Source: a virus. From it: DNA of 24,363 bases. Shown piece by piece: positions 1-20,342 of this stretch. Positions within the stretch are counted from its first letter, which is position 1. The number at the start of each line of letters is the position of its first letter. The notes below the pieces were generated by a model. The model was not told the DNA's origin and did not search any database. It saw only the letters and a list, made by a program, of their open reading frames with translations. The stretch lies in IMG/VR virus record IMGVR_UViG_3300025141_014189, positions 1-24,363 of that record; one strand, given 5' to 3'. The position numbers were made by a program, and so were the translations under genes.

Positions 1-283
1 TCCAATCATCAAGCGAAGGAACAAAATAAAACTCTACACCATAAAGCTGCCGATACTTCTTGCCGGCTTTTTGCATTTTGACTGTGTGTGCTCGGGCATG
101 TGCCAATCCGGATCCATTACCGTGATCAGTTAGCGCCCAGGAGTCCATACCTTGAGATTCTGAGAGGATAAAATCAATATGTTCTTTAGGATAACCCAGT
201 CCATCAAAAGTACTAAATGATGAGTGTGCATGAAGTCCCGTAAATCGGGTTGGGGGTTTTACTAAATTTAACTTTGATTTCAC
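1..283 (-). CDS. dnaE: DNA polymerase III alpha-type (DnaE), PHP domain, 3' end outside window
   Basis: This is the N-terminal 94 residues of a protein that runs off the left edge. It starts at GTG (281-283), with GGAGA six bases upstream. The sequence carries the PHP-domain signature of bacterial replicative polymerases: LHAHSSFSTFDG near residue 17 (the HxH metal ligands) and ALTDHGNGSG near residue 50 (the DH ligands), followed by YGVEFYF, which matches the usual IGCE.Y strand. In DnaE this domain precedes the palm and fingers and often has phosphoesterase or proofreading activity. A hairpin terminator lies just upstream, so the gene may begin a new transcript or depend on readthrough. The alternative is a stand-alone PHP phosphoesterase. 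The polymerase core is outside the window, so the polymerase call rests only on resemblance of the N-terminus. Confidence 0.75.
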   Translation of the reverse strand, partial: MKSKLNLVKPPTRFTGLHAHSSFSTFDGLGYPKEHIDFILSESQGMDSWALTDHGNGSGLAHARAHTVKMQKAGKKYRQLYGVEFYFVPSLDDW

Positions 284-299
284 TATTTTCTCCAGATAC

Positions 300-332
300 A
301 AAAATGGCCTGGTATTATTATAACACCAGACC
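300..332 (-). terminator. Rho-independent terminator between epimerase and dnaE
   Basis: Positions 306-332 form a 12-bp stem with a 3-base loop (UAA). On the minus strand it is followed by AUUUUUGU. Two of the pairs are G-U on the minus strand and would be C-A mismatches on the plus strand, which indicates that the minus-strand RNA is the functional one. It lies 24 bases past the epimerase stop and 17 bases before the dnaE ribosome-binding region. Confidence 0.8.
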
Positions 333-4135: not shown

Positions 4136-4756
4136 ATGTACACAGCCGAAGAAGAAGTCATCAACTCTGCAACGCACTTTTTATCAGCGATTGCCTCTGC
4201 CCTCTTTACGATCCTTATAGTGGGTAATACGAGCTTGTCGGGCATGCAAACCCTCGGAATATTTTTAGTAGGTTTGACAGGAACCTGGACATTTTTATCT
4301 TCATATTTGTATCACTCTTCCAAGAAAAGTCATAAAAGAATCCGGAACCAAATCCTAGACAAATCTTCTATCTACATTATGATTGGAGGCAATGGCGCGG
4401 GTGTCTGTATGTTGAGCTCTTCGTCTGTAACATCACTAATATTCTGTTTACTCTTGGTATCTATCTCATGTCTTTTAGCAGCGAACTTTTGCCTAAAACC
4501 CAAAGTCACTGAGACTTTCACTCTTACATCGTATTTACTGCTAGGCTGGCTTGCAGTTATACCTGCATCTGGACTTTTAATGCCCAGTAAATTCACAGAT
4601 CTCCCCCAGCTTATTTTTCTTTTAGGCGGAGGTGTCGCTTATAGTTTAGGTGTGGTATTTTACGTGAGTGAAAAAAAATGGTACCACACTGTATGGCATG
4701 GATTTACTATGTTAGGCTTTGGCTTACATCTGGCAGGATGTTACTACTGTCTCTAG
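4136..4756 (+). CDS. Hemolysin III / PAQR-family membrane protein
   Basis: 206 residues, mostly hydrophobic, with about seven predicted membrane helices. Family motifs are in order: EEEVINSATHF (E, N10, H14) at the start, SSYLYHS with H60 in the second helix, LDKSSIYIMIGGNGAG (D75) and, near the end, WYHTVWHGF with H184 and H188. The conserved histidines and aspartate are the zinc ligands of the PAQR fold, whose bacterial members are called hemolysin III, YqfA or TrhA and act in membrane or lipid homeostasis. It is the only plus-strand gene here and ends on a CTAG shared with the opposing gene, so it looks like an added accessory gene (moron). No good Shine-Dalgarno is visible before the ATG. 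Cytolytic activity is not implied by the family name. Confidence 0.85.
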   Translation: MYTAEEEVINSATHFLSAIASALFTILIVGNTSLSGMQTLGIFLVGLTGTWTFLSSYLYHSSKKSHKRIRNQILDKSSIYIMIGGNGAGVCMLSSSSVTSLIFCLLLVSISCLLAANFCLKPKVTETFTLTSYLLLGWLAVIPASGLLMPSKFTDLPQLIFLLGGGVAYSLGVVFYVSEKKWYHTVWHGFTMLGFGLHLAGCYYCL

Positions 4757-5354: not shown

Positions 5355-6161
5355 TTACTTTTGCTTATCAGGGGCCCAATGGGTTTTTCTACCATCGGGT
5401 GTTGAGGTTTTGATTACTCTGTTACCTTCTGCATCCATTTTACGATTATAACATAAAAATCGGCTGGAGTAATCCCCGGGCGCCCCAGAAAAATTCTTGT
5501 GTGTTAAAAAAGTTGCTCCCCCAAACTTATAAGATGTTTTCATAACATCTCTAATAGCTTCGTAAAGCAACAAAAGATCTATATCACTAATGTCAGATAC
5601 ATTTCGTCCTGGATTTATGCCAGCTAACCATAAAGACTCTGCTTTAATATAATTTCCTACGCCGGCGACGATACTTTGATTCATCAATACCTTTGTGATG
5701 TTCCATCCATCCTTCTTGCGTATTTTTTCCAAAAAATCATTTCCAGTAAAATTATCATCAAACATATCAGGTCCCAACTTTTCTAACTTTTTTTTAAGTT
5801 TATGCGGACCATAGACAAACTTTAAAGTTCCAAAATTTCTCTGGTCATTAAAGTAAACAAAACTATTGTCTTCCATTGTAAGCTGGACTCTAGAATGCTT
5901 TGTCTTCTTGACACTCCACTGACCTGTCATGCCTAACGTGGACCAGATATTGTTTCCGGAAGATGTCAAGATGTATAGAAACTTTCCGTGGACACCAACA
6001 CCTATAATTTTTGATGGCAGACTTTCTGTCATTAGATTAAATCCGTCAATAGGCTTCTTAGTATATCGTCCAGAAATTATCTCGACCCTCTTTAGTGTTT
6101 TGCCTGAGGTCATTTTTGCCAAGTCTTTTCCCATTTTTTTAACTTCGGGTCCTTCAGGCAT
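5355..6161 (-). CDS. Formamidopyrimidine-DNA glycosylase / endonuclease VIII family (zincless finger)
   Basis: 268 residues, the normal length for Fpg/Nei. It begins MPEGPEV, giving the catalytic Pro2 and Glu3 after Met removal. GKFLYIL (Lys60) is the conserved lysine strand, DQRNFGTLKF (about 106-115) is the strand that fills the gap left by the flipped base, and WNITKVLMNQSIVAGVGNYIKAE (153-175) is the helix-two-turn-helix with Asn170. The C-terminal finger keeps the DNA-contacting arginine (STPDGRKTH, Arg258) but has only one cysteine (Cys237) in place of the four zinc cysteines, so it is a zincless finger as in NEIL1 and some viral and plant members. It excises oxidised purines or pyrimidines. 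AAGGGTG precedes the ATG. Confidence 0.9.
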   Translation of the reverse strand: MPEGPEVKKMGKDLAKMTSGKTLKRVEIISGRYTKKPIDGFNLMTESLPSKIIGVGVHGKFLYILTSSGNNIWSTLGMTGQWSVKKTKHSRVQLTMEDNSFVYFNDQRNFGTLKFVYGPHKLKKKLEKLGPDMFDDNFTGNDFLEKIRKKDGWNITKVLMNQSIVAGVGNYIKAESLWLAGINPGRNVSDISDIDLLLLYEAIRDVMKTSYKFGGATFLTHKNFSGAPGDYSSRFLCYNRKMDAEGNRVIKTSTPDGRKTHWAPDKQK

Positions 6162-6281: not shown

Positions 6282-7535
6282 TTATGGGCACAAATTGTCT
6301 TCTACAATATTGCTGAGGTTGGCTTTGATATCTCCATCGAACAACATGTTCCACTCTCCTCCTGTGATTTGAGAAAAATGAGACCACCCAGCAATGCCTG
6401 TTTTGCTCCCTTCATCAGTAAATGTGTAAACCCTTATCGACGATATTGTCTGTAGCATTAGAGAAAGTTTAGATTTTGTGATGGTCTCTTTAGTATTATA
6501 AGTTTTTCCTTTTTTGGATAACGGAAATAGAAAACTTTGCCCTATCTCATTAGTGAAAACAATTATTACTTTCTTGCTATTCTTTCTCCAAGAAACTTCA
6601 AAACTCCCTAGAGGTGGGTCTGATTCTGCAAATACATTTCCTATCCAGGTGGGCCAAACTAACACGTCATTTTCGTATGGTAAAAACAAAGATATGTTTT
6701 TAATTGATAAATACAATGCATCATAGAGCATTTCGTATTGACTATTTAGATCATATGTTGTGATTATCTGGACATCTTTCTTAAAATCGTCTACATGTTG
6801 AAGATTGCTTATCATTGCTAAGTAATTTTGATTTCCTGGAGTTTCTCCTGCATTTAGCGGACCTGCGATCATACTCCATAAAATAGAATCATTCTTGTAC
6901 TGGAATGCGAAAAAATTTATCGCGTCAATTACTTCGTCTATTTCATTTTTCATAGAAGCTGACATGTCTACCAAAAACAGGATATCGACTAAGTCGTCTT
7001 TGCACTGTCCAACTTCTAACCCTGTCTTATCCGGTGATACATCTTTTTCTTCCTCTTTGTTTTCTTTTTCGTCATCACACACATCATCCGTACATTTGCC
7101 TATACACGTGCCTGGCTTTATAAAGCCCTTGTCACAGTATACTAAGCGAGTACCCGGGTAGCCTTCTAAAGTTGTGCAAGGCTCTTCATCAATTACAGAA
7201 AAAGATGGATTACACTCTAGAAACTCTTCGCACTCGCTCATGCTTAGAACAACTGGGGGATCCTTGCAAACATCCTTAACAATCTCTATTCTCATAAGTG
7301 GACCAGATATTCCCGGACACAGATAGTACTCAGTGCGGATACACTGTGAGTTGGGATAATTCCCCGGTGTTTCTCCGACAGCATCTTCCATTTCTATCAT
7401 GGGCAACTCTTCGTATGGCATAGTAGTATAAGAGCACCCTGGCGGGTCTTTCATAAAAAGCTCAGAGCATGACCCCAGGCATAATGCTATTGCGCATGCA
7501 GTAAAAATACATACGGGACGATCTATAGTTTTCAT
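6282..7535 (-). CDS. Lipoprotein with cysteine-rich region and von Willebrand factor A domain
   Basis: 417 residues from the ATG at 7535; an upstream TTG at 7550 is unlikely to be used. The N-terminus is a lipoprotein signal peptide: basic MKTIDR, a hydrophobic core, and the lipobox LGSC with Cys23 as the lipid-modified residue. Position +2 is Ser, which does not signal inner-membrane retention, so outer-membrane placement is likely in a Gram-negative host. Residues about 30-155 are cysteine-rich (more than a dozen Cys, probably disulfide-bonded). An acidic linker of Lys and Glu follows. From about residue 180 comes a VWA domain with the metal-ion-dependent adhesion site DMSAS (Asp190, Ser192, Ser194) and a later strand containing IVFTNEIGQS. 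VWA domains bind proteins or sugars. Role in the phage is unknown; superinfection exclusion or altered host surface is an inference. Confidence 0.8.
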   Translation of the reverse strand: MKTIDRPVCIFTACAIALCLGSCSELFMKDPPGCSYTTMPYEELPMIEMEDAVGETPGNYPNSQCIRTEYYLCPGISGPLMRIEIVKDVCKDPPVVLSMSECEEFLECNPSFSVIDEEPCTTLEGYPGTRLVYCDKGFIKPGTCIGKCTDDVCDDEKENKEEEKDVSPDKTGLEVGQCKDDLVDILFLVDMSASMKNEIDEVIDAINFFAFQYKNDSILWSMIAGPLNAGETPGNQNYLAMISNLQHVDDFKKDVQIITTYDLNSQYEMLYDALYLSIKNISLFLPYENDVLVWPTWIGNVFAESDPPLGSFEVSWRKNSKKVIIVFTNEIGQSFLFPLSKKGKTYNTKETITKSKLSLMLQTISSIRVYTFTDEGSKTGIAGWSHFSQITGGEWNMLFDGDIKANLSNIVEDNLCP

Positions 7536-7609
7536 AACGGATTGTCTCAAGAATTTGAGAGAGACCGTGAATAATAAGAATTAGTAGATTTTCGTATACA
7601 GGACTTCTA

Positions 7610-9988: not shown

Positions 9989-10167
9989 TGTCTTATTCCT
10001 ATAGTTTCCTTAATTTTATCACATGCATTGCAAGTGTGAATAGCTGCAGTGCCTACGCAGCCGATTGTGAATAAAAATGGTGTTAAAGCTACAACAGTGC
10101 TTACTGTAACGGCCTTTAGTGATATTACAATCAACCTGTCTATCACTTTATTAACTACACTTCCCAT
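9985..10167 (-). CDS. Small membrane protein, 60 aa
   Basis: 60 residues from ATG 10167, which overlaps the nrdJ stop by 17 bases. A hydrophobic helix covers about residues 12-42 (VISLKAVTVSTVVALTPFLFT and following), after a basic N-terminus (MGSVVNKVIDR). Cysteines are at 37, 46 and 49, the last two in CNAC, which could bind metal or form a disulfide. TIGC (34-37) looks like a weak lipobox, but the hydrophobic stretch is too long and the Cys too far for a normal lipoprotein signal. GCGGAC is a weak ribosome-binding site. Its stop overlaps the clpP start (ATGA), so the two proteins are made together; a membrane anchor or regulator for ClpP is an inference. Confidence 0.65.
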   Translation of the reverse strand: MGSVVNKVIDRLIVISLKAVTVSTVVALTPFLFTIGCVGTAAIHTCNACDKIKETIGIRQ

Positions 10168-12610
10168 GTCCGCATGATGTACACATTACACATCCTTCTT
10201 GATATACTAGCGTTCCTTCTGCACTACAGTTTTCACAAATTGTCATTCCTGGAACAGTTCCGTCTTTAATATAATTCTTTAGAACCCGAGCAATAACTTT
10301 TGAAAAAGAGAACATATCCATCTCAGTATCTTTTTGTAATTGCTCTACAATGTATTGAATTGGTGCGCCGTGTCTAAGAGCTAGTGATATGGTTCTCGTA
10401 AACCCTGCGTGGTTTGGATTGTCAAAAACAGATACGATATCCTTGATTAAAATCTCGTCGCCATTTTTACCAATTCTTAAGTCATATCTTGAGTTTCTGG
10501 TCTTGTATGGATGTTTGACAATGTATCCTTTTTTGTATTTCTTGGGGATCTCTATATACTTCTGTAAACCTCCCATTACTTCATAAGGTCTACCATCCAA
10601 TAAACCTACAAGGATCGTCCACGCTTCACCCTTGATACTGGCATGATGAATATAGCACTTAAGCTCATCAGGTCTTGAAGGGGCAGAGTGTGTCTTAAAC
10701 TTTGTTTCTTCGTTTGATTTACTTACCAAGACTCCAGATCTGGACCCTTCTCGATAAACAGTGACTCCCTTTAAGCCCTTTTTCCACCCGCGCCAATATA
10801 CCTTTTTGACGTCATCAATTGTAACATCGGATGGCAAATTAATTGTCTTGCTGATTGCATGACATACCCACTTCTGTGCTGCTGCCTGTAAATCTACTGC
10901 GGCTTCCCACACAATTTCGTTAGCAGTTGTTCCAGCATATGGACTTTCTTCGACGTCCGTCTTTCCAGTTATCTCCATCCACTTCTTAAATCCGTGGTGA
11001 TATACGTCAAACTCTTGCCATTTGTCGCCTAGATCATCAACAAAATCAACCGTTGCATCTGGATCTGATGAGTTTACTTTTTTTCGTCTGGTGTATTTCA
11101 ACATAAACGGAGGCTCTATGCCGGACGTTGTCTGTGTAAGAACTGACACACTTCCGCAAGGAGCAGTCGTTGTTATCGCGATGTTTCTTCTTCCGAATCG
11201 GCTATGAAGATTTCTTAATTCAGGAGACTCTTCAAATAATCTCTTAATAAATGGGTGATCTGCTTCCTTTTCATAGTCATATACAAGAAAAGATCCTCGC
11301 TCTGATGCTAAAATACAGGAAGATGTATAAGATGCTATCGCCAACTCTTTATAGATTCGCTCTGTAGCATTGATGCTCTGTCTAGATCCATATTTCAGAC
11401 CTAGCATTGCTAATGTGTCTCCCAAGCCTGTTACACCCAAGCCCGTTCTTCTTCCATTTAGTGCAGCTTCCTTAATTTTTTGCCACAATTCTAACTCAAC
11501 TCTTTTTGTATCGAGGGCTTCAGGATCAGACTCTATCTTATGAATTATTCTATCAACACATTCAAGCTCGAGATCAATGAGATCATCCATTAGCCTCTGT
11601 GCTTTTTGAGCATGCTCATTAAACAAGTCATAATCAAATTCAGCGTTTCTCATAAAAGGTTTTTTTACAAAAGACGTTAGATTTAAAAGGAGCAGTCTGC
11701 AACTATCATAAGCAGAAAGTGTTATCTCACTGCATGGATTAGTGCTTATTGTGTGAAAACCCACATCCTTATACGCCTGTGCTGGTGTAAACTTTAGAAC
11801 ATTGTCCCAAAATAGCAATCCTGGCTCTGCAGCGGCATGTGCAGATTCAATTATTTGGTTCCAAATATTAGAAGCTGACGTTGTTCTGGAAACTAGACGA
11901 TCAGTATCATTCTCGGTCGGAAATCTTAGCTCATATTCTTCGTCATTATCAACTGCCTTCATAAACTCATCTGTAAGACGAATTGAAATATTTGCCCCTG
12001 TTACTTTGGTTAGATCTCTCTTTATGTTTATGAATGTTTCGATGTCCGGATGGTGTACCGATATCGTGAGCATCAATGCTCCCCTTCGGCCGCCCTGTGC
12101 TACTTCCCGGCACGAATTAGAAAATCTCTCCATAAAGACACCAATTCCATCAGTTGTCTTTGCTGCATTTGAAGTTCTGAGTCCGTGTGGACGTATTGTA
12201 GAAACATCAAATCCAACTCCTCCGCGGCGTTTCATTATTTGGACCTGCTCTTCATCGGTCTTTAATATTCCACCGTAAGAATCTTCAGGGCTCTTTACTA
12301 CAAAACAATTGGAAAGTGACTGAATTTGATACTTGTTACCTACCCCCGACATAGGTGATCCTTGGGGTACAACATACTTGAAATCCTTCAGTAAATTGAA
12401 GATTGTTTCTTCAGACATGGGATTGTCGTATTTCTTTTCTATTCTCGCAAACTCTTTTGATAGACGTTTATGCATATCATCAGGTGTCGTCTCAAGAAAG
12501 TTTCCTTGATTGTCTTGAAGTGCATACTTTGTAACAAAAACTGATGCCGCTAATTCGTCACCCTTAAAATATGATAAGCTTTCATTAAAAGCCTCATCAA
12601 ATGTTGACAT
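10151..12610 (-). CDS. nrdJ: Class II (adenosylcobalamin-dependent) ribonucleotide reductase
   Basis: 819 residues from ATG 12610, chosen for GAGGAG eight bases upstream; an earlier TTG at 12640 overlaps dut and is unlikely. It reduces ribonucleotides to deoxyribonucleotides using coenzyme B12, without an NrdB subunit. SLSNCFVV (Cys102) and AYDSCRLLLLNL (Cys304) supply the redox cysteines. STNPCSEITL holds the thiyl Cys293 and Glu295. APCGSVSVLTQTTSGIEPPF is the conserved C-terminal barrel segment. The tail ends with CENCSAEGTL then GCVMCTSCGHGKC, the zinc-ribbon and re-reduction cysteines typical of NrdJ. It sits four bases after dut. This implies a host that makes or takes up cobalamin. Confidence 0.95.
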   Translation of the reverse strand: MSTFDEAFNESLSYFKGDELAASVFVTKYALQDNQGNFLETTPDDMHKRLSKEFARIEKKYDNPMSEETIFNLLKDFKYVVPQGSPMSGVGNKYQIQSLSNCFVVKSPEDSYGGILKTDEEQVQIMKRRGGVGFDVSTIRPHGLRTSNAAKTTDGIGVFMERFSNSCREVAQGGRRGALMLTISVHHPDIETFINIKRDLTKVTGANISIRLTDEFMKAVDNDEEYELRFPTENDTDRLVSRTTSASNIWNQIIESAHAAAEPGLLFWDNVLKFTPAQAYKDVGFHTISTNPCSEITLSAYDSCRLLLLNLTSFVKKPFMRNAEFDYDLFNEHAQKAQRLMDDLIDLELECVDRIIHKIESDPEALDTKRVELELWQKIKEAALNGRRTGLGVTGLGDTLAMLGLKYGSRQSINATERIYKELAIASYTSSCILASERGSFLVYDYEKEADHPFIKRLFEESPELRNLHSRFGRRNIAITTTAPCGSVSVLTQTTSGIEPPFMLKYTRRKKVNSSDPDATVDFVDDLGDKWQEFDVYHHGFKKWMEITGKTDVEESPYAGTTANEIVWEAAVDLQAAAQKWVCHAISKTINLPSDVTIDDVKKVYWRGWKKGLKGVTVYREGSRSGVLVSKSNEETKFKTHSAPSRPDELKCYIHHASIKGEAWTILVGLLDGRPYEVMGGLQKYIEIPKKYKKGYIVKHPYKTRNSRYDLRIGKNGDEILIKDIVSVFDNPNHAGFTRTISLALRHGAPIQYIVEQLQKDTEMDMFSFSKVIARVLKNYIKDGTVPGMTICENCSAEGTLVYQEGCVMCTSCGHGKCS

Positions 12611-12614
12611 GTTT

Positions 12615-13160
12615 TTACTCCTCTGTATCGCCGGCTGCAAATGATGGTGTGTTTATGTTAGAGCTGCCTAAACTCCCACCCTTTCTTTTGGAATCTTTTG
12701 TTTCATTTAAAAATTCTAAATTACTAATCACGGTAAAGTCAGTCAAACACGGTAAAATCAATAATTGCAAAGGAAGTTTTGCTCCTTCAGGAATTGTTGT
12801 ATCTCTTTCTCCAACGTTTATTAAGTTTACAAATATTTCTTCTGTATAACCCGGGTCAATAACACCCGCCCTAGACGTTAAACCGGTGCCAATGATGCTG
12901 CCTCTCTCTTTGACCAGGGCAACAGTGTTTGGAGGAAGGGCGATTTTAACTCCTGTGGGAATCATCCCTTTAGGTTCACCAAATGCTACCCACTTATTCC
13001 TACCGTGAAGGATAATTTCGGGCCCTGCGTTATATAAATCTAGCCCTACACTCTCTCCATCATAAGCCGGTTTGTAATTTTGTGGGTCCAACCCGTGATG
13101 ATGAAGTACAGTAGACCCTTTTTCTGTGAGACTTATTTTAATCTTCTTTGTGGTCGCCAT
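12615..13160 (-). CDS. dut: Trimeric dUTPase
   Basis: 181 residues, slightly longer than usual (about 150). All five motifs can be traced: SVGLDLYNA (motif 1, 37-45), IPTGVKIALP (motif 2), RGSIIGTGL then AGVIDPGYTEEIFVNLIN (motif 3, catalytic Asp102), LPLQLLILP (motif 4), and RKGGSLGSSN (motif 5, 159-168). Motif 5 normally reads RGxxGFGSTG; here Phe is Leu and the end is altered, and about 13 extra residues follow. It hydrolyses dUTP to dUMP. GGAGAG precedes the ATG at 13160. The gene begins 23 bases before the helicase stop and ends four bases before nrdJ, so all three are on one transcript. Two unrelated dUTPase-like proteins are also encoded in this window. Confidence 0.9.
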   Translation of the reverse strand: MATTKKIKISLTEKGSTVLHHHGLDPQNYKPAYDGESVGLDLYNAGPEIILHGRNKWVAFGEPKGMIPTGVKIALPPNTVALVKERGSIIGTGLTSRAGVIDPGYTEEIFVNLINVGERDTTIPEGAKLPLQLLILPCLTDFTVISNLEFLNETKDSKRKGGSLGSSNINTPSFAAGDTEE

Positions 13161-14532
13161 TAACTTCTCTCCATTTTTTCTTGAGCAAATTTTTCATATC
13201 TGACTCTGATTGTTTCACTGCTTCATCAAGGGTCAAGGTTTTTTCATCTAGAATTTCAAATGTACTTCTTGCAGTGTCAATGTGTACAGGAAATACTAAG
13301 CCATCTCTTCCGGCTCTGTTTTTAGCCACAAAAAGCCTTCCTGCGCCAGTAGATTTTTCCAGTGCTTTTCTAGAAATAGAAACTACGACGTCTGCCACCA
13401 TAGCTTTACCATACGCTTCAGCCATATTTTCAAGACCAACAATATCAGACTTTGCAGAATCTCTATTAGCTTGAGATGCTGTCCATACTGGAATGTTCAA
13501 GTCCATCGCCAGATTTCTTAGTTCCTCATAAATCAATTTAAGCTCGTGGCGCAGGGAGTCGTATGCCCTGGTTGATCTCATAATATCAGCATAATCTATA
13601 ATGATTACTGACGGCTTGAATCCTTTTAACATTAATTTTTCGATGTGATTTCTAATTGTGATGGAAGACGCACTTCCCGTAGGATATTCCTTGATTATCA
13701 GTCTTCCCAGATCCATATCTTTGTATTTATCTAAAACAACCTGTTTTTGATCCTGCACATCGTTGGATGGAATGCTACATAAATTTGAATCGTACCTCAA
13801 GCCCACAGCATGCTCTGTCAGTTCAAATGTGTAATGTAGCACATTTTTTCCTGCTTTCATTGCATTTGCGCCCATGGCGACAAGCCAGTGGGACTTTCCA
13901 ACCCCGGTATTGGCTGTCACGACGCCTATTTCTCCTCGACCTAGGCCGCCTCTAAAGATATCTTTCGCGTCGAGTCTGGGTAAACCTGTGGGACAAACTT
14001 GTCGATTAATTCTAACAAATCTTGCGTCTGCATCTTCAAAAAAATCATGCCCTACGCTGCTTGGCATTCCGACTGATACTGCATTTTTCATTAATGTCAC
14101 GACACTTTCAAACTTCTCTGTCTGTATTAAATCAACTGCCTTCTCTAATGCATCTTTAAAAGCTTGTTTCCTACAAAAATCAAGAGACTTGTCTTTGACA
14201 TATGCAAGATCGCCTAAATCTGTACTTGTCTTGACACGGTGTAGAAACTGAACTATTTGATCTCTAAGGATTGCATCATCCCTCTGGGATAGATCATCTC
14301 GTACAATTGTTACTAAAAGTCCTAGTGTGGGAAAGCACTTGTACTTTTTAAAGTACGCAAAAAACTTGTCTGCAAGATACTCCAAGTATCTCACATCAAA
14401 GAAAGTTGGATCCATAACTTCCACCATTTGAGCTGACCATTCTTTATCTGTAATCAAACTCTGAAATATCTTTTCTTGAAAAGACTTTCCGTATTGACCA
14501 AAATGTGGTGCCATGGATGATGTGTCTGTCAT
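13138..14532 (-). CDS. Replicative DNA helicase, DnaB/gp41 family
   Basis: 464 residues. The N-terminal 165 residues are a helical domain of the DnaB type. The RecA-like ATPase starts around 180 (CPTGLPRLDA): Walker A TANTGVGKS at 206-214, the catalytic glutamate strand YTFELTE (Glu237), Walker B VIIIDYADIM at 309-318, and a later sensor region WTASQANRD. This unwinds DNA ahead of the fork. The ATG (14532) overlaps the FEN stop by four bases (ATGA), giving coupled translation, and the C-terminus overlaps dut. The length and motifs resemble T4 gp41 more than host DnaB (about 470 and typically with a clearer primase-binding N-terminal domain). No primase is visible in the window. Confidence 0.9.
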   Translation of the reverse strand: MTDTSSMAPHFGQYGKSFQEKIFQSLITDKEWSAQMVEVMDPTFFDVRYLEYLADKFFAYFKKYKCFPTLGLLVTIVRDDLSQRDDAILRDQIVQFLHRVKTSTDLGDLAYVKDKSLDFCRKQAFKDALEKAVDLIQTEKFESVVTLMKNAVSVGMPSSVGHDFFEDADARFVRINRQVCPTGLPRLDAKDIFRGGLGRGEIGVVTANTGVGKSHWLVAMGANAMKAGKNVLHYTFELTEHAVGLRYDSNLCSIPSNDVQDQKQVVLDKYKDMDLGRLIIKEYPTGSASSITIRNHIEKLMLKGFKPSVIIIDYADIMRSTRAYDSLRHELKLIYEELRNLAMDLNIPVWTASQANRDSAKSDIVGLENMAEAYGKAMVADVVVSISRKALEKSTGAGRLFVAKNRAGRDGLVFPVHIDTARSTFEILDEKTLTLDEAVKQSESDMKNLLKKKWREVNGDHKED

Positions 14533-15491
14533 TCTTTAATCCTGGTATGTGCCTGTACAGAGGCGTAAAAAGAGTCAATGTCAAAATTCTGAATGCCTTC
14601 ACGTAAAAACATTCTCACTAAAGATATTTTATCATTAGAGGGGGCTGAATTTTCAAGAGAAAATTCAATTCTTTGAATTTGGTCTGCTGATAGTCCTATC
14701 ATATCTAGCAACATCAGCTTCCAATTTCTCTTTGCAATAGATGAGTTTTCTAGAATACTATCGTATAGTTTTAAAGTTTTTTCCTCAGACGCGTAAGATG
14801 CCTCCGCAATTATATCTTCTACAGAGACGAATTTATCAGATGAAAGGCATGGGAATCTTTTAGATAGGGATACAAATCCGGCTCTTGGGACACCCCCCAA
14901 TCCATCAGAAGGGTCTCCGACAAAAGATCTTGCAGTACAAAAGTTTGTGCAAGATACACCAAATTTTTCTAAAACTGTCCGAGGGGTTATATACTTTTTT
15001 TGACCGGGTGACCACTGTATTGTTCTTTTTGTTAAAAGCTGATAGAAGTCTTTGTCTGAGGACACTATTACACAATTGTTATTTTCCATCTTGTATTTAA
15101 CGACATAACTTATTACATCATCTGCCTCACAATCAGGAACGTACATCTGCAAAACTGCAGTATGTTTAAGTGCTTCTATCAAAAGAGTAATTTGATTATC
15201 TCTATTCTGAGTTGTGTCAGGGATTTCATTCAGATAATATCTATTCAATTTCTGTGGTCTTCGATTCTGTTTATAATCTTTATAGATTGCCCTTCTTCTT
15301 GGGGATCCTCCCCCTTCCCACACTACAATTACTTTCTTTGGGTAGATCCTGTCACATAAAATTGAAAGAGACTTTAAAAATCCAGTGAACCCACCTACAT
15401 GTTGTCCGGACTCGCTCATGCTTGGGTTGACAACGAAATGACGCATAAATAAGTTCAGACCATCCACTATAAGAATGGGTCGATCTTTCAT
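14529..15491 (-). CDS. 5'-3' exonuclease / flap endonuclease (T4 RNase H type)
   Basis: 320 residues. The FEN/PIN active-site acids are all present: ILIVDGLNLF (Asp10), CEADDVISYV (Glu122, Asp124, Asp125), VSSDKDFYQLL (Asp146, Asp148), and FVGDPSDGLGGVPRAG (Asp193, Asp196), which is the helix-three-turn segment that holds duplex DNA. WEGGGSPRRRAIYKDYKQNR (about 58-76) matches the arch region that threads the 5' flap. It removes RNA primers and flaps on the lagging strand. GGAGG lies seven bases before the ATG at 15491. It is two bases from the recA stop upstream and overlaps the helicase start downstream, so recA, FEN and helicase form a tight unit. Confidence 0.92.
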   Translation of the reverse strand: MKDRPILIVDGLNLFMRHFVVNPSMSESGQHVGGFTGFLKSLSILCDRIYPKKVIVVWEGGGSPRRRAIYKDYKQNRRPQKLNRYYLNEIPDTTQNRDNQITLLIEALKHTAVLQMYVPDCEADDVISYVVKYKMENNNCVIVSSDKDFYQLLTKRTIQWSPGQKKYITPRTVLEKFGVSCTNFCTARSFVGDPSDGLGGVPRAGFVSLSKRFPCLSSDKFVSVEDIIAEASYASEEKTLKLYDSILENSSIAKRNWKLMLLDMIGLSADQIQRIEFSLENSAPSNDKISLVRMFLREGIQNFDIDSFYASVQAHTRIKE

Positions 15492-15493
15492 TT

Positions 15494-16675
15494 CTATTCC
15501 TCCGGGGAAATAAGAGCTGACTCCATATCTAAAGAAATTGCTCTTACTTCTTCGTAAGACTCAGGGTCAACTACCATATGATCTGAGTTGGACATTTTTC
15601 TCACCATCACCCGAGCCAATAGAGCATCAATATAGGGCGAATACTGTGGGTCTTCAATTATCTCATTAAAGTCTGCCTTATAAAATTTCTTCTCAACAAT
15701 TAATTCTCCTGTGTCAGCATTTGATACTGTGAGTGTCTTCCATGTACTAGACCCAGCGACACAGATATCCTTTCCTTCAATTGTTTCTTTGCCATTCTTT
15801 CTTAGGACATCAAATATCTGCTCATGCTCTTTTATGCCTTTTCCAAAATGTATCTCAAAATTCACTGTTCTAAATGGTGCGCTGACCTTATTTTTTATCG
15901 TTTTTGCAGAAACGTGAATTCCGATTACATTCTTGTCTTTATCTTGTATCTGTTGACCAGCACCTAGTTTAATTCTAACCGAAGAGTGAAAAGGAATTGC
16001 TTTACCACCCGGCGTGGTTGTGGGATCGCCATACATTACGCCTACTTTCGTTCTTATCTGATTAAGGCAAATAAACAAGACATTCTGGTTTGCGATAACG
16101 CCGGTTATCTTTCTCATTCCCTTAGAAATTGCTCGTGCTTGTAATCCGATTGACTCCTTGTCATAGTCTCCTACTAGCTCAGCTTTTGGGGAAGATGCAG
16201 CAACTGAGTCCCAAATAATTGTAATGGGGACATCTTTATTCATCGCTTTTGCCTTCATAATAGTAGACTCAGCAATAGAGAGAACTTCTTCTGTGCAGTG
16301 TGTATCAACGTAAACAAAGCGTTTCGTAATATCTACACCCAACAAAGATAGATTTTCCACACTTGTCGCGTTTTCTGTATCTATATACACAACTATTCCG
16401 CCCATATGTTGTGTAGATCTTGCAACCTGAATCGCTATGTGCGATTTACCTATAGACGGTGGGCCAAAGATTTCTACAATTCTACCCTCAGGAAGTCCTC
16501 CATTTGCTCTATTCGCGATGATATAATCTAGAAGTCGAGAACCGGTGCTTATCCACCGATTTACATGTGTTGGAGATGTATCATGAGATAAGTTATATGC
16601 AACTTTTGTGCCGTGCTCTTTATTAAGAGATGTGATAAGCTCATCTGTAAAATTATTCATGTCTTTTTTGGGCAT
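15494..16675 (-). CDS. RecA/UvsX recombinase
   Basis: 393 residues. The core is closer to RecA than to T4 UvsX: Walker A GPPSIGKS at 71-78, the catalytic glutamate strand YIDTENATS (Glu101), Walker B ITIIWDSVAASSP, and loop L2/NQIR motif FICLNQIRTKVGVMYGDP followed by TTTPGGKAI. Strand exchange, repair and recombination-dependent replication are the expected roles. An unusual C-terminal half of about 130 residues has a long domain with GHxGKGIKEHEQIFD-like helix and an acidic end (SPEE), which in RecA regulates DNA binding. It starts at ATG 16675 with AGGAG upstream and its own promoter and 5' region (see 16700-16728). It begins the recA-FEN-helicase run. Confidence 0.92.
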   Translation of the reverse strand: MPKKDMNNFTDELITSLNKEHGTKVAYNLSHDTSPTHVNRWISTGSRLLDYIIANRANGGLPEGRIVEIFGPPSIGKSHIAIQVARSTQHMGGIVVYIDTENATSVENLSLLGVDITKRFVYVDTHCTEEVLSIAESTIMKAKAMNKDVPITIIWDSVAASSPKAELVGDYDKESIGLQARAISKGMRKITGVIANQNVLFICLNQIRTKVGVMYGDPTTTPGGKAIPFHSSVRIKLGAGQQIQDKDKNVIGIHVSAKTIKNKVSAPFRTVNFEIHFGKGIKEHEQIFDVLRKNGKETIEGKDICVAGSSTWKTLTVSNADTGELIVEKKFYKADFNEIIEDPQYSPYIDALLARVMVRKMSNSDHMVVDPESYEEVRAISLDMESALISPEE

Positions 16676-16791: not shown

Positions 16792-17586
16792 TTAAAGATC
16801 CTCTAGATCTGCGAAAGCATCATCTAAGCTCTTATAGCGCTTAGTTTCTGTAGGTGTCTCTGAATTAGTCGTATCGTTTGTGTTATTTGTAGAGGAATGA
16901 TGTTCGGTTCCGGTGCCTTCATTAGACCCATCGTCACCATTAAGCCAATCATTTACGATCTTCTCAAGTTCCTCATAAGTCTTGCATGTATACATCTCGT
17001 CCAGATCAGGAATTTCTCCCAACCATGACTTGGCCTGTGCAGACTCGTCAGAAAGCTTAGATTGCTTTCCACGAGGACGAACTTCTGTAGAGGCCCACAT
17101 TCTACCGGGGGCCTTTGTGCATACTACCTTGACATCACGACCATCAGTAGGATCTGTGATATCGCCGTAATCTTCATCAAGCATAATATTGAGAAGAGAT
17201 TGATACACTGTCTTTCCAAATGACCAAAGGCGGACACCCTTATCTTCCTCGCCTCGAACCACGACTGGAGCGTAGCTTCTCATCTTGGGGTAAAGCTTCT
17301 TTGCTAGCTCATAAGACTCCTTAGAGCCGTCGTCTCGAAGCTTTTGAATAAGTTCTTGAATCGGGTCTGGTTGCCCAAACTGATAGGGCGCTAAAAGGCC
17401 CGGGTTGTTCCCGATGTTATAATAAAACCAGCGCTCCTTAAAAGGCTGTCCATCATTATCAGGAAAAGAAAGAAGGCGGACTGTTGATTCCTCTCCCTCT
17501 TGAGGTCGCCACATGGTATTTCGGCGACTATTGGTACCAGAAAGCTGGTTTAACTTCTTGCGAATTGCATCTAGATCAATTGCCAT
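16792..17586 (-). CDS. Single-stranded DNA-binding protein, T4 gp32-like
   Basis: 264 residues from ATG 17586 with AAGGAG seven bases upstream. The organisation is that of gp32: a basic N-terminus (IRKKLNQLSGTNSRRNT) for cooperativity, a core with FKERWFYYNI and PYQFGQPDPIQELIQKL near the T4 core pattern, then a low-complexity Ser/Thr/Asn/Glu linker (about 218-245) and an acidic tail LDDAFADLEDL that would contact helicase and polymerase. The zinc cysteines of T4 gp32 are absent, so this is a zinc-free variant; the two remaining Cys are far apart. It covers ssDNA at forks and cooperates with RecA. It is an isolated transcript with its own promoter region and terminator. Confidence 0.85.
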   Translation of the reverse strand: MAIDLDAIRKKLNQLSGTNSRRNTMWRPQEGEESTVRLLSFPDNDGQPFKERWFYYNIGNNPGLLAPYQFGQPDPIQELIQKLRDDGSKESYELAKKLYPKMRSYAPVVVRGEEDKGVRLWSFGKTVYQSLLNIMLDEDYGDITDPTDGRDVKVVCTKAPGRMWASTEVRPRGKQSKLSDESAQAKSWLGEIPDLDEMYTCKTYEELEKIVNDWLNGDDGSNEGTGTEHHSSTNNTNDTTNSETPTETKRYKSLDDAFADLEDL

Positions 17587-17932: not shown

Positions 17933-18505
17933 CTAACTATTCTGTTTGTGCAGAACAGACAAGCGTGAACTTAACAAACCAGCTGAAATTGGATTTAAGC
18001 AATTTGCATAAAACTGATTTTCTGGTAAATGAAGCCCTTGTGAAACGTTAATAGCTTCCCACTCTTCTCTAGAAAGATCTATCCCAAAATGAGAAAGAAG
18101 CCAAAGAGAACGATGAGCTGTATTCATCTTTGGACATTTGTCATTATATTTGTAGACCTGGCCTAATTTTTCTCTATGCCACTCAGAGTCCTGTATTAGA
18201 TAAAGGTCTTCATCTGGAGAGAGACCTCCCACTTTTCCTAGCTCATGTAAAAGAGAAACTTTAACTAATGATTTAGTGTTGCCAAACGTTTTTGAAAGAG
18301 ACTTAGAAATAGATGCCACCTCTAAGCTAAAAGCTAATAGCTCGCCGGGATGTCCACCATTTTCTTCAGTTGTGCCGCGGGGACACATCAGCAATCGTTC
18401 TCCTAAAGACTCACATAAGTCCTTTGCTGGCTCCGGTCCGATGACCTTCTTAAGAACGCCACTATATTTTTCAAACTGAGATAATAATTGTTCTGTATCT
18501 TTCAT
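17933..18505 (-). CDS. HD-domain-like phosphohydrolase
   Basis: 190 residues. ENGGHPGELLAFSLEVASIS (His52) and SLLHELGKVGG (His87, Glu88) give the H...HD/E metal-binding pattern of HD hydrolases, with HE in place of HD. NTAHRSLWLLSHFGI (His131) supplies the third histidine position, and EEWEAINVSQGLHL follows where the last Asp would be expected. The core is there but two of the classical residues are altered, so activity is uncertain. HD proteins of phages act on nucleotides or as RNA/DNA phosphohydrolases. It starts at ATG 18505, exactly at the predicted transcription start of the promoter upstream, so it may be leaderless. Confidence 0.6.
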   Translation of the reverse strand: MKDTEQLLSQFEKYSGVLKKVIGPEPAKDLCESLGERLLMCPRGTTEENGGHPGELLAFSLEVASISKSLSKTFGNTKSLVKVSLLHELGKVGGLSPDEDLYLIQDSEWHREKLGQVYKYNDKCPKMNTAHRSLWLLSHFGIDLSREEWEAINVSQGLHLPENQFYANCLNPISAGLLSSRLSVLHKQNS

Positions 18506-18540: not shown

Positions 18541-19146
18541 CTAAACTACGTACACGATGATCGGGGCATTTCGACCTTTATTTATTTCTACTGCCTTGAC
18601 CAAATTTAGCATACCCGCATTTTTGGCACCTAGTAATGTATGTGATAAAAACTTTATGGCGTTGCGGTGATCCAGGCCGGCATTTGTGATACCTACAACG
18701 TTCACTAATGTCCCATCAGGTGCTTGCTCTTGAGTAAGAGTTGCTCCGGAGTAAGCTTGACCCATGATATCATTCGAATGAATAGCTGCATTCATAACAC
18801 CCAAAACCTGCTCTAAATCGTTTCCGGAGGTGACCTTGACCCCCAAATCTTTCATAAGACCTTTTGGATCACTCATAGCTCTAGCGCCTGCTTCTGTGGT
18901 CGCAGATTTAAATCGTCCGCCTGTGCCAAAGGCACCTGAAGCTATTCCAACTGAGCCTGGCGGACCTTTTGTCCCTCGCTTGTTTTTTCTTCTTTTGGGT
19001 GCCTTCTTTTTTGGCTTCTCTTCAGGCTTCTGGGCAACAGGCTTTGGTGCCTGGACTTTGTTTCCTTTATCAGTCTCTTCGGTTTGCTCTTGGAGTATAT
19101 TCCACAAAGCAGACCTTACTTTTCTTTCTAAAAATGACTTGTCCAT
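18541..19146 (-). CDS. Basic protein with N-terminal amphipathic helix
   Basis: 201 residues. Residues 4-20 (SFLERKVRSALWNILQEQ) form an amphipathic helix similar in layout to that of the 81-aa protein. A long Lys/Pro/Glu low-complexity stretch follows (about 27-62, with KRRKNKRGTK), then a Gly-rich SGAFGTGGRF and a folded-looking C-terminal half of about 110 residues containing VLGVMNAAIHSNDIMGQAYSG and repeated VVGITNAG-like strands. I do not recognise the C-terminal domain. The combination of a helical tag, basic linker and globular end suggests a virion-associated or DNA-binding protein. ATG 19146 lies five bases after the polymerase stop. Confidence 0.75.
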   Translation of the reverse strand: MDKSFLERKVRSALWNILQEQTEETDKGNKVQAPKPVAQKPEEKPKKKAPKRRKNKRGTKGPPGSVGIASGAFGTGGRFKSATTEAGARAMSDPKGLMKDLGVKVTSGNDLEQVLGVMNAAIHSNDIMGQAYSGATLTQEQAPDGTLVNVVGITNAGLDHRNAIKFLSHTLLGAKNAGMLNLVKAVEINKGRNAPIIVYVV

Positions 19147-19151
19147 GTTCT

Positions 19152-20342
19152 TTAATTATCCTCCAAAACCTTAACTGATGCATCAAACTTCCAGTCGCCC
19201 AAAGATAGTTCTATTGTTTCGTTTTTTAAGAGAGATTCTGCAAACTCTTTTTGACAATCGATTATCAGAGCATCATGAATTACGAACAAAGGAGAACAAT
19301 AATCAGAAAAGTTTTCTGAAAATTGTGCGAACATAAGAAGGGATCCTTCAGCAACGGAACTTTGTAAATAATAGCTTATCAACAAGTGTTCATTATTATC
19401 CTGAATCTTGAGCGGTCTTCCCACAGCATTCCTAAGATTGTTGCTTGATAACTCTAATGCCAAGCGTCTTTTTAATCTATCATAATCAAAGTAATTACGT
19501 GCCTGTCTAATGACGCTTCTTGCATTAACACACTCAGGCAACTTTTTTTCAAGATTTTTAGGAGATTGTCCGTATAAGGCACACAAAGTAATCAATTTTG
19601 CATGAGAGCGCTCAACTTGACTTTTTAGAATAGTGTTCGCCACAAATTCATAAACATCAACTGGTATATCATCACCTTTAACATGCAGCGCAAACTTGGG
19701 CTCTGCTGACACTAAATCTATTTGAATTACCTTTCCGCCAGGATATCGACTCTTGAGACAACTTCTAACTCTCGCTGGAGCCGTGAGTATTTGGGGACCT
19801 CCTGTGACGGTGAGTCTTCCCGTAGATGTGTTTACTGTGGAGTACTCTACTCTATTACATAAACTACCTGGGGCGGGTAAAAAACTCGAAAGAGTACTCT
19901 TTACAGTCTCATACTCTGTCTCTTCTATCATGCCCTTTAGCTTAGGAAGGTCTATGGAAGATCTAGATAGGCCCTGGAGGAATCTTTTGATTGTTAAGTA
20001 GGTTACTAGGTAATCTGAGTTTTCAGTGTCACAGAGAGCATTCTGGATACCCTCTACGCATGTTTTCAAGTGTGCACGTAGTGATTCTTTAGGCACTGCC
20101 AAAGCTGCATCTTTTCCGGTGATTCCTAAGATGTTACACATCGATTGATAGTTTGTGGGCATCGGAAATATTTCCGAAGATCCGACTAGCTTCATAAAGC
20201 CATTGATCTCAGATTTACCTGTCATTAAGCTCATCTGTGTCTTTTCAATAGAATCATGATCAACTTCACCGATCAAAATTTTCTTGCTTTCTGAAAGTTC
20301 TAGATAGATGTCCACGCTTATATTATTACACAAGTGCCACAA
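19152..20342 (-). CDS. Small family-A DNA polymerase-like protein
   Basis: 396 residues from a TTG at 20342, chosen because AAGAG lies seven bases upstream and no ATG fits. It holds the polymerase palm and fingers only: STGRLTVTGGPQIL (174-187, the TGRLSS..PNLQ equivalent), motif A IDLVSAEPKFAL (Asp209), motif B RSHAKLITLCALYGQ (Lys249, Tyr257, Gly258), and motif C VIHDALIID (His356, Asp357). Family A motif C is HDE; here the Glu is Ala. There is no 3'-5' exonuclease domain and the protein is less than half the usual size, so it could be a repair or primer-filling polymerase. The window also holds a DnaE-type start, so two polymerases are encoded. The gene lies 17 bases after the hub gene. 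Confidence 0.82.
   Translation of the reverse strand: MWHLCNNISVDIYLELSESKKILIGEVDHDSIEKTQMSLMTGKSEINGFMKLVGSSEIFPMPTNYQSMCNILGITGKDAALAVPKESLRAHLKTCVEGIQNALCDTENSDYLVTYLTIKRFLQGLSRSSIDLPKLKGMIEETEYETVKSTLSSFLPAPGSLCNRVEYSTVNTSTGRLTVTGGPQILTAPARVRSCLKSRYPGGKVIQIDLVSAEPKFALHVKGDDIPVDVYEFVANTILKSQVERSHAKLITLCALYGQSPKNLEKKLPECVNARSVIRQARNYFDYDRLKRRLALELSSNNLRNAVGRPLKIQDNNEHLLISYYLQSSVAEGSLLMFAQFSENFSDYCSPLFVIHDALIIDCQKEFAESLLKNETIELSLGDWKFDASVKVLEDN

Follow-up and report, generated by a model that had tools for sequence, protein, structure and literature searches.

The 24,363-base fragment of virus record IMGVR_UViG_3300025141_014189 analysed here (the window), on which nearly all long genes lie on the minus strand, is a piece of a large virus of bacteria that encodes both a minimal family A DNA polymerase (small PolA) and the start of a bacterial-type DnaE. 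These two polymerase genes are both present and conserved together over a very wide range of phages, and the small PolA belongs to a fixed block of replication and recombination genes that includes a separate 5'-nuclease and was absent from the first reading of the sequence. Our best explanation, for which we see the case as about evenly balanced, is that the small PolA would be the active, proofreading-free half of a split Pol I completed by the FEN-type nuclease of the block, with DnaE as the main genome-copying enzyme. The annotated genes of the window are:

2 to 301, minus strand: first 100 aa of PHP-DnaE (DNA polymerase III alpha); the gene runs off the window end
4136 to 4756, plus strand: haemolysin-III-related membrane protein (PF03006, E 2.8e-20)
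5355 to 6161, minus strand: formamidopyrimidine-DNA glycosylase (PF01149, PF06831)
6282 to 7550, minus strand: lipoprotein-like ORF of 422 aa, weakly matching von Willebrand A (E 0.02)
10151 to 12640, minus strand: ribonucleotide reductase (RNR), a downstream member of the block
13138 to 14532, minus strand: DnaB-like replicative helicase (Pfam, PHROG)
14529 to 15491, minus strand: stand-alone 5'-3' exonuclease of FEN type (PF02739), in the same block as the small PolA
15494 to 16675, minus strand: UvsX/RecA-type recombinase (Pfam, PHROG)
16792 to 17586, minus strand: gp32-like single-strand DNA-binding protein (SSB; Pfam, PHROG)
17933 to 18505, minus strand: 190-aa protein without a Pfam or PHROG family, encoded between the small PolA and SSB, kept in 44 of the 51 loci scored for gene order
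18541 to 19146, minus strand: 201-aa protein directly downstream of the small PolA, detectable in 19 of the 51 loci
19152 to 20342, minus strand: small PolA, 396 aa from a TTG start, with an alternative GTG start at 20315

A minimal family A polymerase

The original prediction described a 396-aa family A protein with the three motifs A to C, an HDA instead of HDE, and no exonuclease, and this description was confirmed by profiles, an AlphaFold model and an alignment of 23 members. Based on its predicted structure, the product of 19152-20342(-) is a complete, if minimal, family A polymerase domain with the thumb-palm-fingers fold of Pol I. The window protein itself scored weakly in a single-sequence scan against Pfam DNA_pol_A (19.4 bits, cut-off 34.3), a cut-off exceeded in 34 of 38 related records, and matched PHROG 17 (DNA polymerase) with an E of 8e-10. 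A profile of the 23-member alignment recovered 71 PDB sequences at E<=0.01 (best 2.2e-16), and all among the 60 of these matches listed were named Pol I or other family A polymerases. The AlphaFold model (pLDDT 84, pTM 0.83) aligned with Bst Pol I (4dsj) at a Z of 23.2 over 353 residues (rmsd 4.2); this alignment begins at residue 40, the thumb region is modelled as two long helices, and model and structural match together indicate that the polymerase fold is nearly entire, thumb region included. Against annotated phages the window protein gave 59 weak matches, mostly to DNA polymerases among the 20 listed, and the protein of one relative (L096) gave none. Likewise, a single-sequence pattern search of viral contigs returned no close relatives of the window protein, and relatives were found by a whole-protein search in DnaE-bearing records and by a profile search. 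Starting from the GTG at 20315 yields a protein of 387 aa whose N-terminus lines up better with that of L082, the closest long relative, than the TTG version does, and this GTG may be the real start.

Conservation was assessed in a core alignment (n=23) of the window protein and 22 relatives found in DnaE-bearing records, in which the polymerase motifs are placed as follows:

19683 to 19733, minus strand: motif A, with D209 and, at the steric-gate position, E214, invariant in 23/23
19569 to 19610, minus strand: motif B, with R245, K249, Y257-G258 and a Leu at the E. coli 762 position
19260 to 19289, minus strand: motif C, H356-D357-A358 (HDA replaces HDE), invariant in 23/23

The residues invariant in all 23 members (G175-R176, R193, D209, E214, R245, K249, Y257-G258, Q327 and H356-D357-A358) correspond, in a comparison with E. 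coli Pol I, to motifs A to C, the TGRL stretch and the conserved Gln that precedes motif C, and include both metal-binding Asp (D209 and D357). Since HDA is invariant in 23/23, it is a trait of the whole family rather than a local mutation, a claim made from the 22 relatives and the window alone, as the profile-search set was chosen with an HDA-containing pattern. Within 84 distinct ORFs, mostly selected by that pattern, the first [VIL][IL]HD match was followed by A in 80 and by G in 3, with one ORF unmatched. In Klenow, the glutamate of HDE assists catalysis, and HDA removes it. Departures from HDE nevertheless appear not to be rare among phage family A polymerases, with HDS in three, HDQ in one and HDE in two of the other phage PolAs compared. 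At the E. coli 762 position, the 23 members carry L (11), I (11) or F (1). A published survey of viral PolAs retained only sequences with F, L or Y at this position (PMC9069017), and the 11 members with Ile would thus have been filtered out. Overall, the small PolA shares its polymerase fold and motifs with bacterial Pol I and Klenow, but differs in its HDA motif C, in the Ile or Leu at 762 of 22/23 members, and in having no FEN domain or working exonuclease, the FEN being a separate gene.

The window protein, 396 aa in all, had no Pfam exonuclease match, and judging from sequence the small PolA is without a working 3'-5' exonuclease. A PolA-type proofreading exonuclease encoded elsewhere was also considered, and is rejected based on the detection of PF01612 in 0/32 related records. 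A Klenow derivative free of the exonuclease was reported to fold and to retain activity, at a 10-fold lower efficiency (PMC6457538). The N-terminal 60–80 residues of the longer members may, on modelling, be a remnant of an eroded Klenow exonuclease domain. In the model of one relative (L083:1252-2454), an extra N-terminal part has low pLDDT, and the alignment starts at Klenow residue 350.

The small PolA is under strong purifying selection and shows no decay: across 32 pairs (60–97% identity), dN/dS was 0.05–0.32 in the 25 pairs for which it could be computed, bearing in mind that seven pairs were saturated at synonymous sites, that many dS values exceed 1 and that pairs share members. The original prediction had allowed that one of the two polymerases might be a relic. 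For the small PolA, this reading was rejected based on these dN/dS values and the catalytic residues invariant in 23/23, and both genes are conserved together. The small PolA is thus apparently a working polymerase.

A fixed gene block and a linked DnaE

Gene order was scored in 51 of 80 profile-search loci, namely those with at least 7.5 kb downstream. In all 51, the small PolA was followed by SSB, UvsX, FEN and helicase in that order, and an RNR was found as well. Across 32 large related records, the FEN (PF02739) was always detected (32/32), 3.5–7.1 kb downstream of the small PolA and on the same strand. A second FEN-type 5'-3' exonuclease was encoded elsewhere in 19 of these 32 records. 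This second FEN is about 270–300 aa long and lies tens of kb from the block FEN (G005, G006 and 17 other records).

At the left end of the window, where the original prediction placed the start of a PHP/DnaE-type polymerase, 2-301(-) matched PF02811 (8e-8) and PHROG 405 (DNA polymerase, 2.9e-11), and full-length DnaE genes in relatives bear this assignment out. Relatives of the 100-aa PHP start were found in 102 viral loci, with identity of up to 88% among the best 80. Three of them, followed end to end, encode a full DnaE of about 1,200 aa with PDIDTD and KFDFLGL motifs, and the DnaE of relative P0002 includes PF02811 (PHP), PF07733 (palm/NTPase), PF17657 (finger) and PF14579 (HHH) domains. 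The palm is known from these relatives, the window's own gene being cut after 100 aa. A short PHP gene without a palm, raised originally as the finding that would speak against a second polymerase, is ruled out by the full-length relatives. Compared with what we take to be the metal ligands of Taq DnaE, the HxH, D and DH of the PHP site align within the first 80 residues, as do, further on in P0002, H, C, D and H. In one relative (L026:9956-14050), the DnaE is 1,365 aa long and carries an insertion resembling an intein just ahead of the catalytic PDIDTD, and in G031, G038 and G060 DnaE is seen in two or three pieces.

The linkage between the two polymerases was examined from both sides. Starting from DnaE, the small PolA was searched in 48 of the 80 DnaE records and found in 22, including 15/15 of those whose sequence upstream of DnaE is 40 kb or longer, and the 26 records without it have at most 32 kb of upstream sequence. 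Starting from 40 records chosen as holders of a small PolA, a DnaE palm was detected in 28. Thirty-eight of these 40 records were mapped (G071, 15 kb, and G073, 22 kb, were left out). DnaE was present in 26/26 mapped records with at least 30 kb downstream of the small PolA, 15–38 kb away and on the same strand, although these counts are not independent, as several records that look like near-copies (G061/G064/G065, G062/G063 and G066/G068) share distances. Among the 12 mapped records with less downstream room, DnaE was found in two, and a third (G027) ends inside the PHP start. As a rule, records have a single family A gene, with PF00476 detected in 37/38 and the remaining small PolA, in G018, found by the whole-protein search.

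A PHP-DnaE also serves as phage polymerase in annotated phages, the best-covered DnaE relatives (Moorella phage MTATph1 and Streptomyces phages) being about 28% identical. Unlike the window set, however, annotated DnaE phages of varied groups encoded any family A polymerase in 0/12 cases, which agrees with the expectation behind the original prediction that phages usually bring a single replicative enzyme.

Relationship to divPolA1

The window protein is of the kind published as divPolA1, and the two-polymerase layout itself has been known since 2024. Yutin et al. (PMC11348598) described divPolA1 as a divergent PolA with a truncated thumb in 14 phages including Flavobacterium phage immuto, located beside a regular family A, B or C polymerase, with palm residues kept, the exonuclease lost and conserved replication genes downstream. 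Of these traits, the window clade shows DnaE as the accompanying polymerase, replication genes downstream, no exonuclease, and conserved palm residues. Immuto, Microcystis phage Mel-JY01 and LR756508 (484 kb) were reached through a search with the helicase. In immuto, a 441-aa family A gene heads an SSB-recombinase-FEN-helicase-RNR series, and a second, 777-aa family A gene lies 37 kb on. As in the window clade, the order is thus small PolA-x-x-SSB-recombinase-FEN-helicase-RNR. The place of the small PolA is taken in Mel-JY01 by a 408-aa "hypothetical protein", with a PolB about 23 kb on, and in LR756508 by a 456-codon ORF, with PolB pieces about 19 kb on.

The two sets differ at the active site: the window clade has Glu at motif A +5 and HDA at motif C, whereas in immuto, Mel-JY01 and LR756508 a His replaces this Glu and motif C reads YDA. 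In a phylogenetic tree that covers these three but not the published members MK892584 and LR796625, the 23 members of the window family formed a clade (support 99/98), as did the immuto group (100/100) and the other PolAs (100/95), i.e. three separate groups, with the window clade and the immuto group not shown as sisters. The family profile misses the small PolA of immuto and LR756508 at E 0.01, and the immuto group is instead tied in by immuto-based searches, synteny and a comparison of these two profiles alone (probability 98.3, E 1.5e-14). GroEL/GroES were reported near the regular polymerases in all published divPolA1 neighbourhoods (PMC11348598), a trait that accompanies the protein without defining it; here, GroES (PF00166) was found in 0/29 records. 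New relative to the 2024 report are the breadth of the DnaE-bearing set, the two-way linkage and the constant FEN, along with the invariant HDA combined with a retained Glu at motif A and the Ile/Leu split at position 762. A partnership with FEN is not named in the abstract or sections 13 and 14 of PMC11348598, and the words "Okazaki" and "lagging" are absent from its main text.

Possible roles of the two polymerases

The original prediction suggested that roles may be split between the two polymerases. A division of roles stands as the best reading. The observed basis for a split Pol I consists of the fold, the catalytic residues, the selection, and the constant linkage to SSB-UvsX-FEN-helicase and to DnaE. 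Polymerase activity, a pairing with FEN and a division of labour are the predicted parts: DnaE, with its own PHP domain, would copy the genome, and the small PolA and the FEN encoded about 4 kb downstream of it would supply the two halves of a split Pol I, the small PolA being the polymerase half. Along with SSB and UvsX, the pair would perform primer replacement and gap filling, as well as short repair or recombination synthesis, and would complete recombination intermediates on DNA coated with SSB and UvsX. The strongest argument for a split Pol I is that the main polymerase is of a different family (C, A or B) in different phages, with no such change in the small PolA or its block, which argues that the small PolA is not the main replicase. 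Loss of the catalysis-assisting glutamate in HDA would count against activity. A link with UvsX, SSB and helicase would be equally in keeping with replication forks, recombination or primer replacement, and primer extension at the fork or damage repair would suit the block nearly as well. Moreover, because the FEN shares an operon-like block with a helicase and a recombinase, co-location singles out no FEN-polymerase pair, and with a second FEN in 19/32 records the block FEN is not the sole candidate partner.

The small PolA might instead work at the fork, extending primers or copying one strand, with DnaE taking over or copying the other, in the manner of primer extension by eukaryotic Pol alpha or of DnaE with PolC in Bacillus. 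We regard this as possible but on balance unlikely. The small PolA does sit in a block with helicase and SSB, with DnaE 15–38 kb away, and from the same context Yutin et al. infer a replication role for divPolA1, the role of the "regular" polymerase being described as less obvious (PMC11348598). However, a short protein without exonuclease would be poorly suited to long copying, and a second, larger polymerase of changing family is always present. A role in repair or translesion synthesis with UvsX, during recombination and damage tolerance and outside routine replication, strikes us as distinctly unlikely: proximity to UvsX and SSB, the absence of proofreading and the formamidopyrimidine-DNA glycosylase in the window would all fit, as would the low-fidelity role proposed for the exonuclease-inactive PolA2 of Actinobacteria (PMC12926913), but the constant presence of the small PolA alongside FEN and helicase, in phages that have diverged widely, suggests a core function.

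That the protein is an inactive relic or a structural subunit seems very improbable. HDA in place of HDE, the weak Pfam score and the His for Glu in motif A of the immuto group point in this direction, yet the other catalytic residues are as invariant as HDA itself, dN/dS is far below 1, and HDS or HDQ occurs in other phage family A polymerases. Finally, we give almost no credence to a PolA-derived primase or RNA polymerase making RNA or primers. A DnaG-type primase was recognised in just 9/32 related records, but this search used one Pfam model that would miss divergent primases, and the glutamate at the steric-gate position, which from work on Klenow should exclude ribonucleotides, is invariant in 23/23. 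An RNA polymerase function has been suggested for divPolA2, which is another, distinct PolA-like protein of phages (PMC11348598).

Several known systems resemble the split Pol I arrangement in part. The APEX/PolA2 of Actinobacteria is also an accessory PolA that lost its exonuclease beside a main DnaE, but it is cellular and keeps a vestigial domain with a clamp-binding motif (PMC12926913). According to the same source, bacteria without Pol I mostly have stand-alone 5'-3' exonucleases. Group 2.2 jumbo phages likewise encode two polymerase families with roles thought to be divided, although there the main enzyme is a PolB and the minimal one a split family C Pol III (Iyer et al. 2021, PMC7824862). 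We tentatively suggest, with somewhat less than even confidence, that an exonuclease-free PolA with FEN, SSB, UvsX and helicase forms a portable "split Pol I" maturation module in large phages, one that would be kept while these phages exchange their main replicase among families A, B and C. If so, this module would be the phage counterpart of the bacterial division of labour between Pol III and Pol I. The finding is neat rather than startling, given that proteins of this kind were already published, and a split Pol I, if true, would interest a wider circle. The two-polymerase layout, published for 14 phages, is here found consistently in a much larger and broad set of DnaE-bearing phages, most of them uncultured, with records of up to 293 kb, and the tie of the small PolA to a separate FEN suggests a specific role that can be tested.

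Rfam and tRNA scans of the 24,363-base window returned no matches. The formamidopyrimidine-DNA glycosylase gene lies upstream of DnaE in many relatives. The 190-aa protein at 17933-18505 contains an HE.GK stretch that gives the impression of HD hydrolases. The haemolysin-III-related gene at 4136-4756(+) is the sole long plus-strand gene with a family match, and is unusual cargo for a phage.
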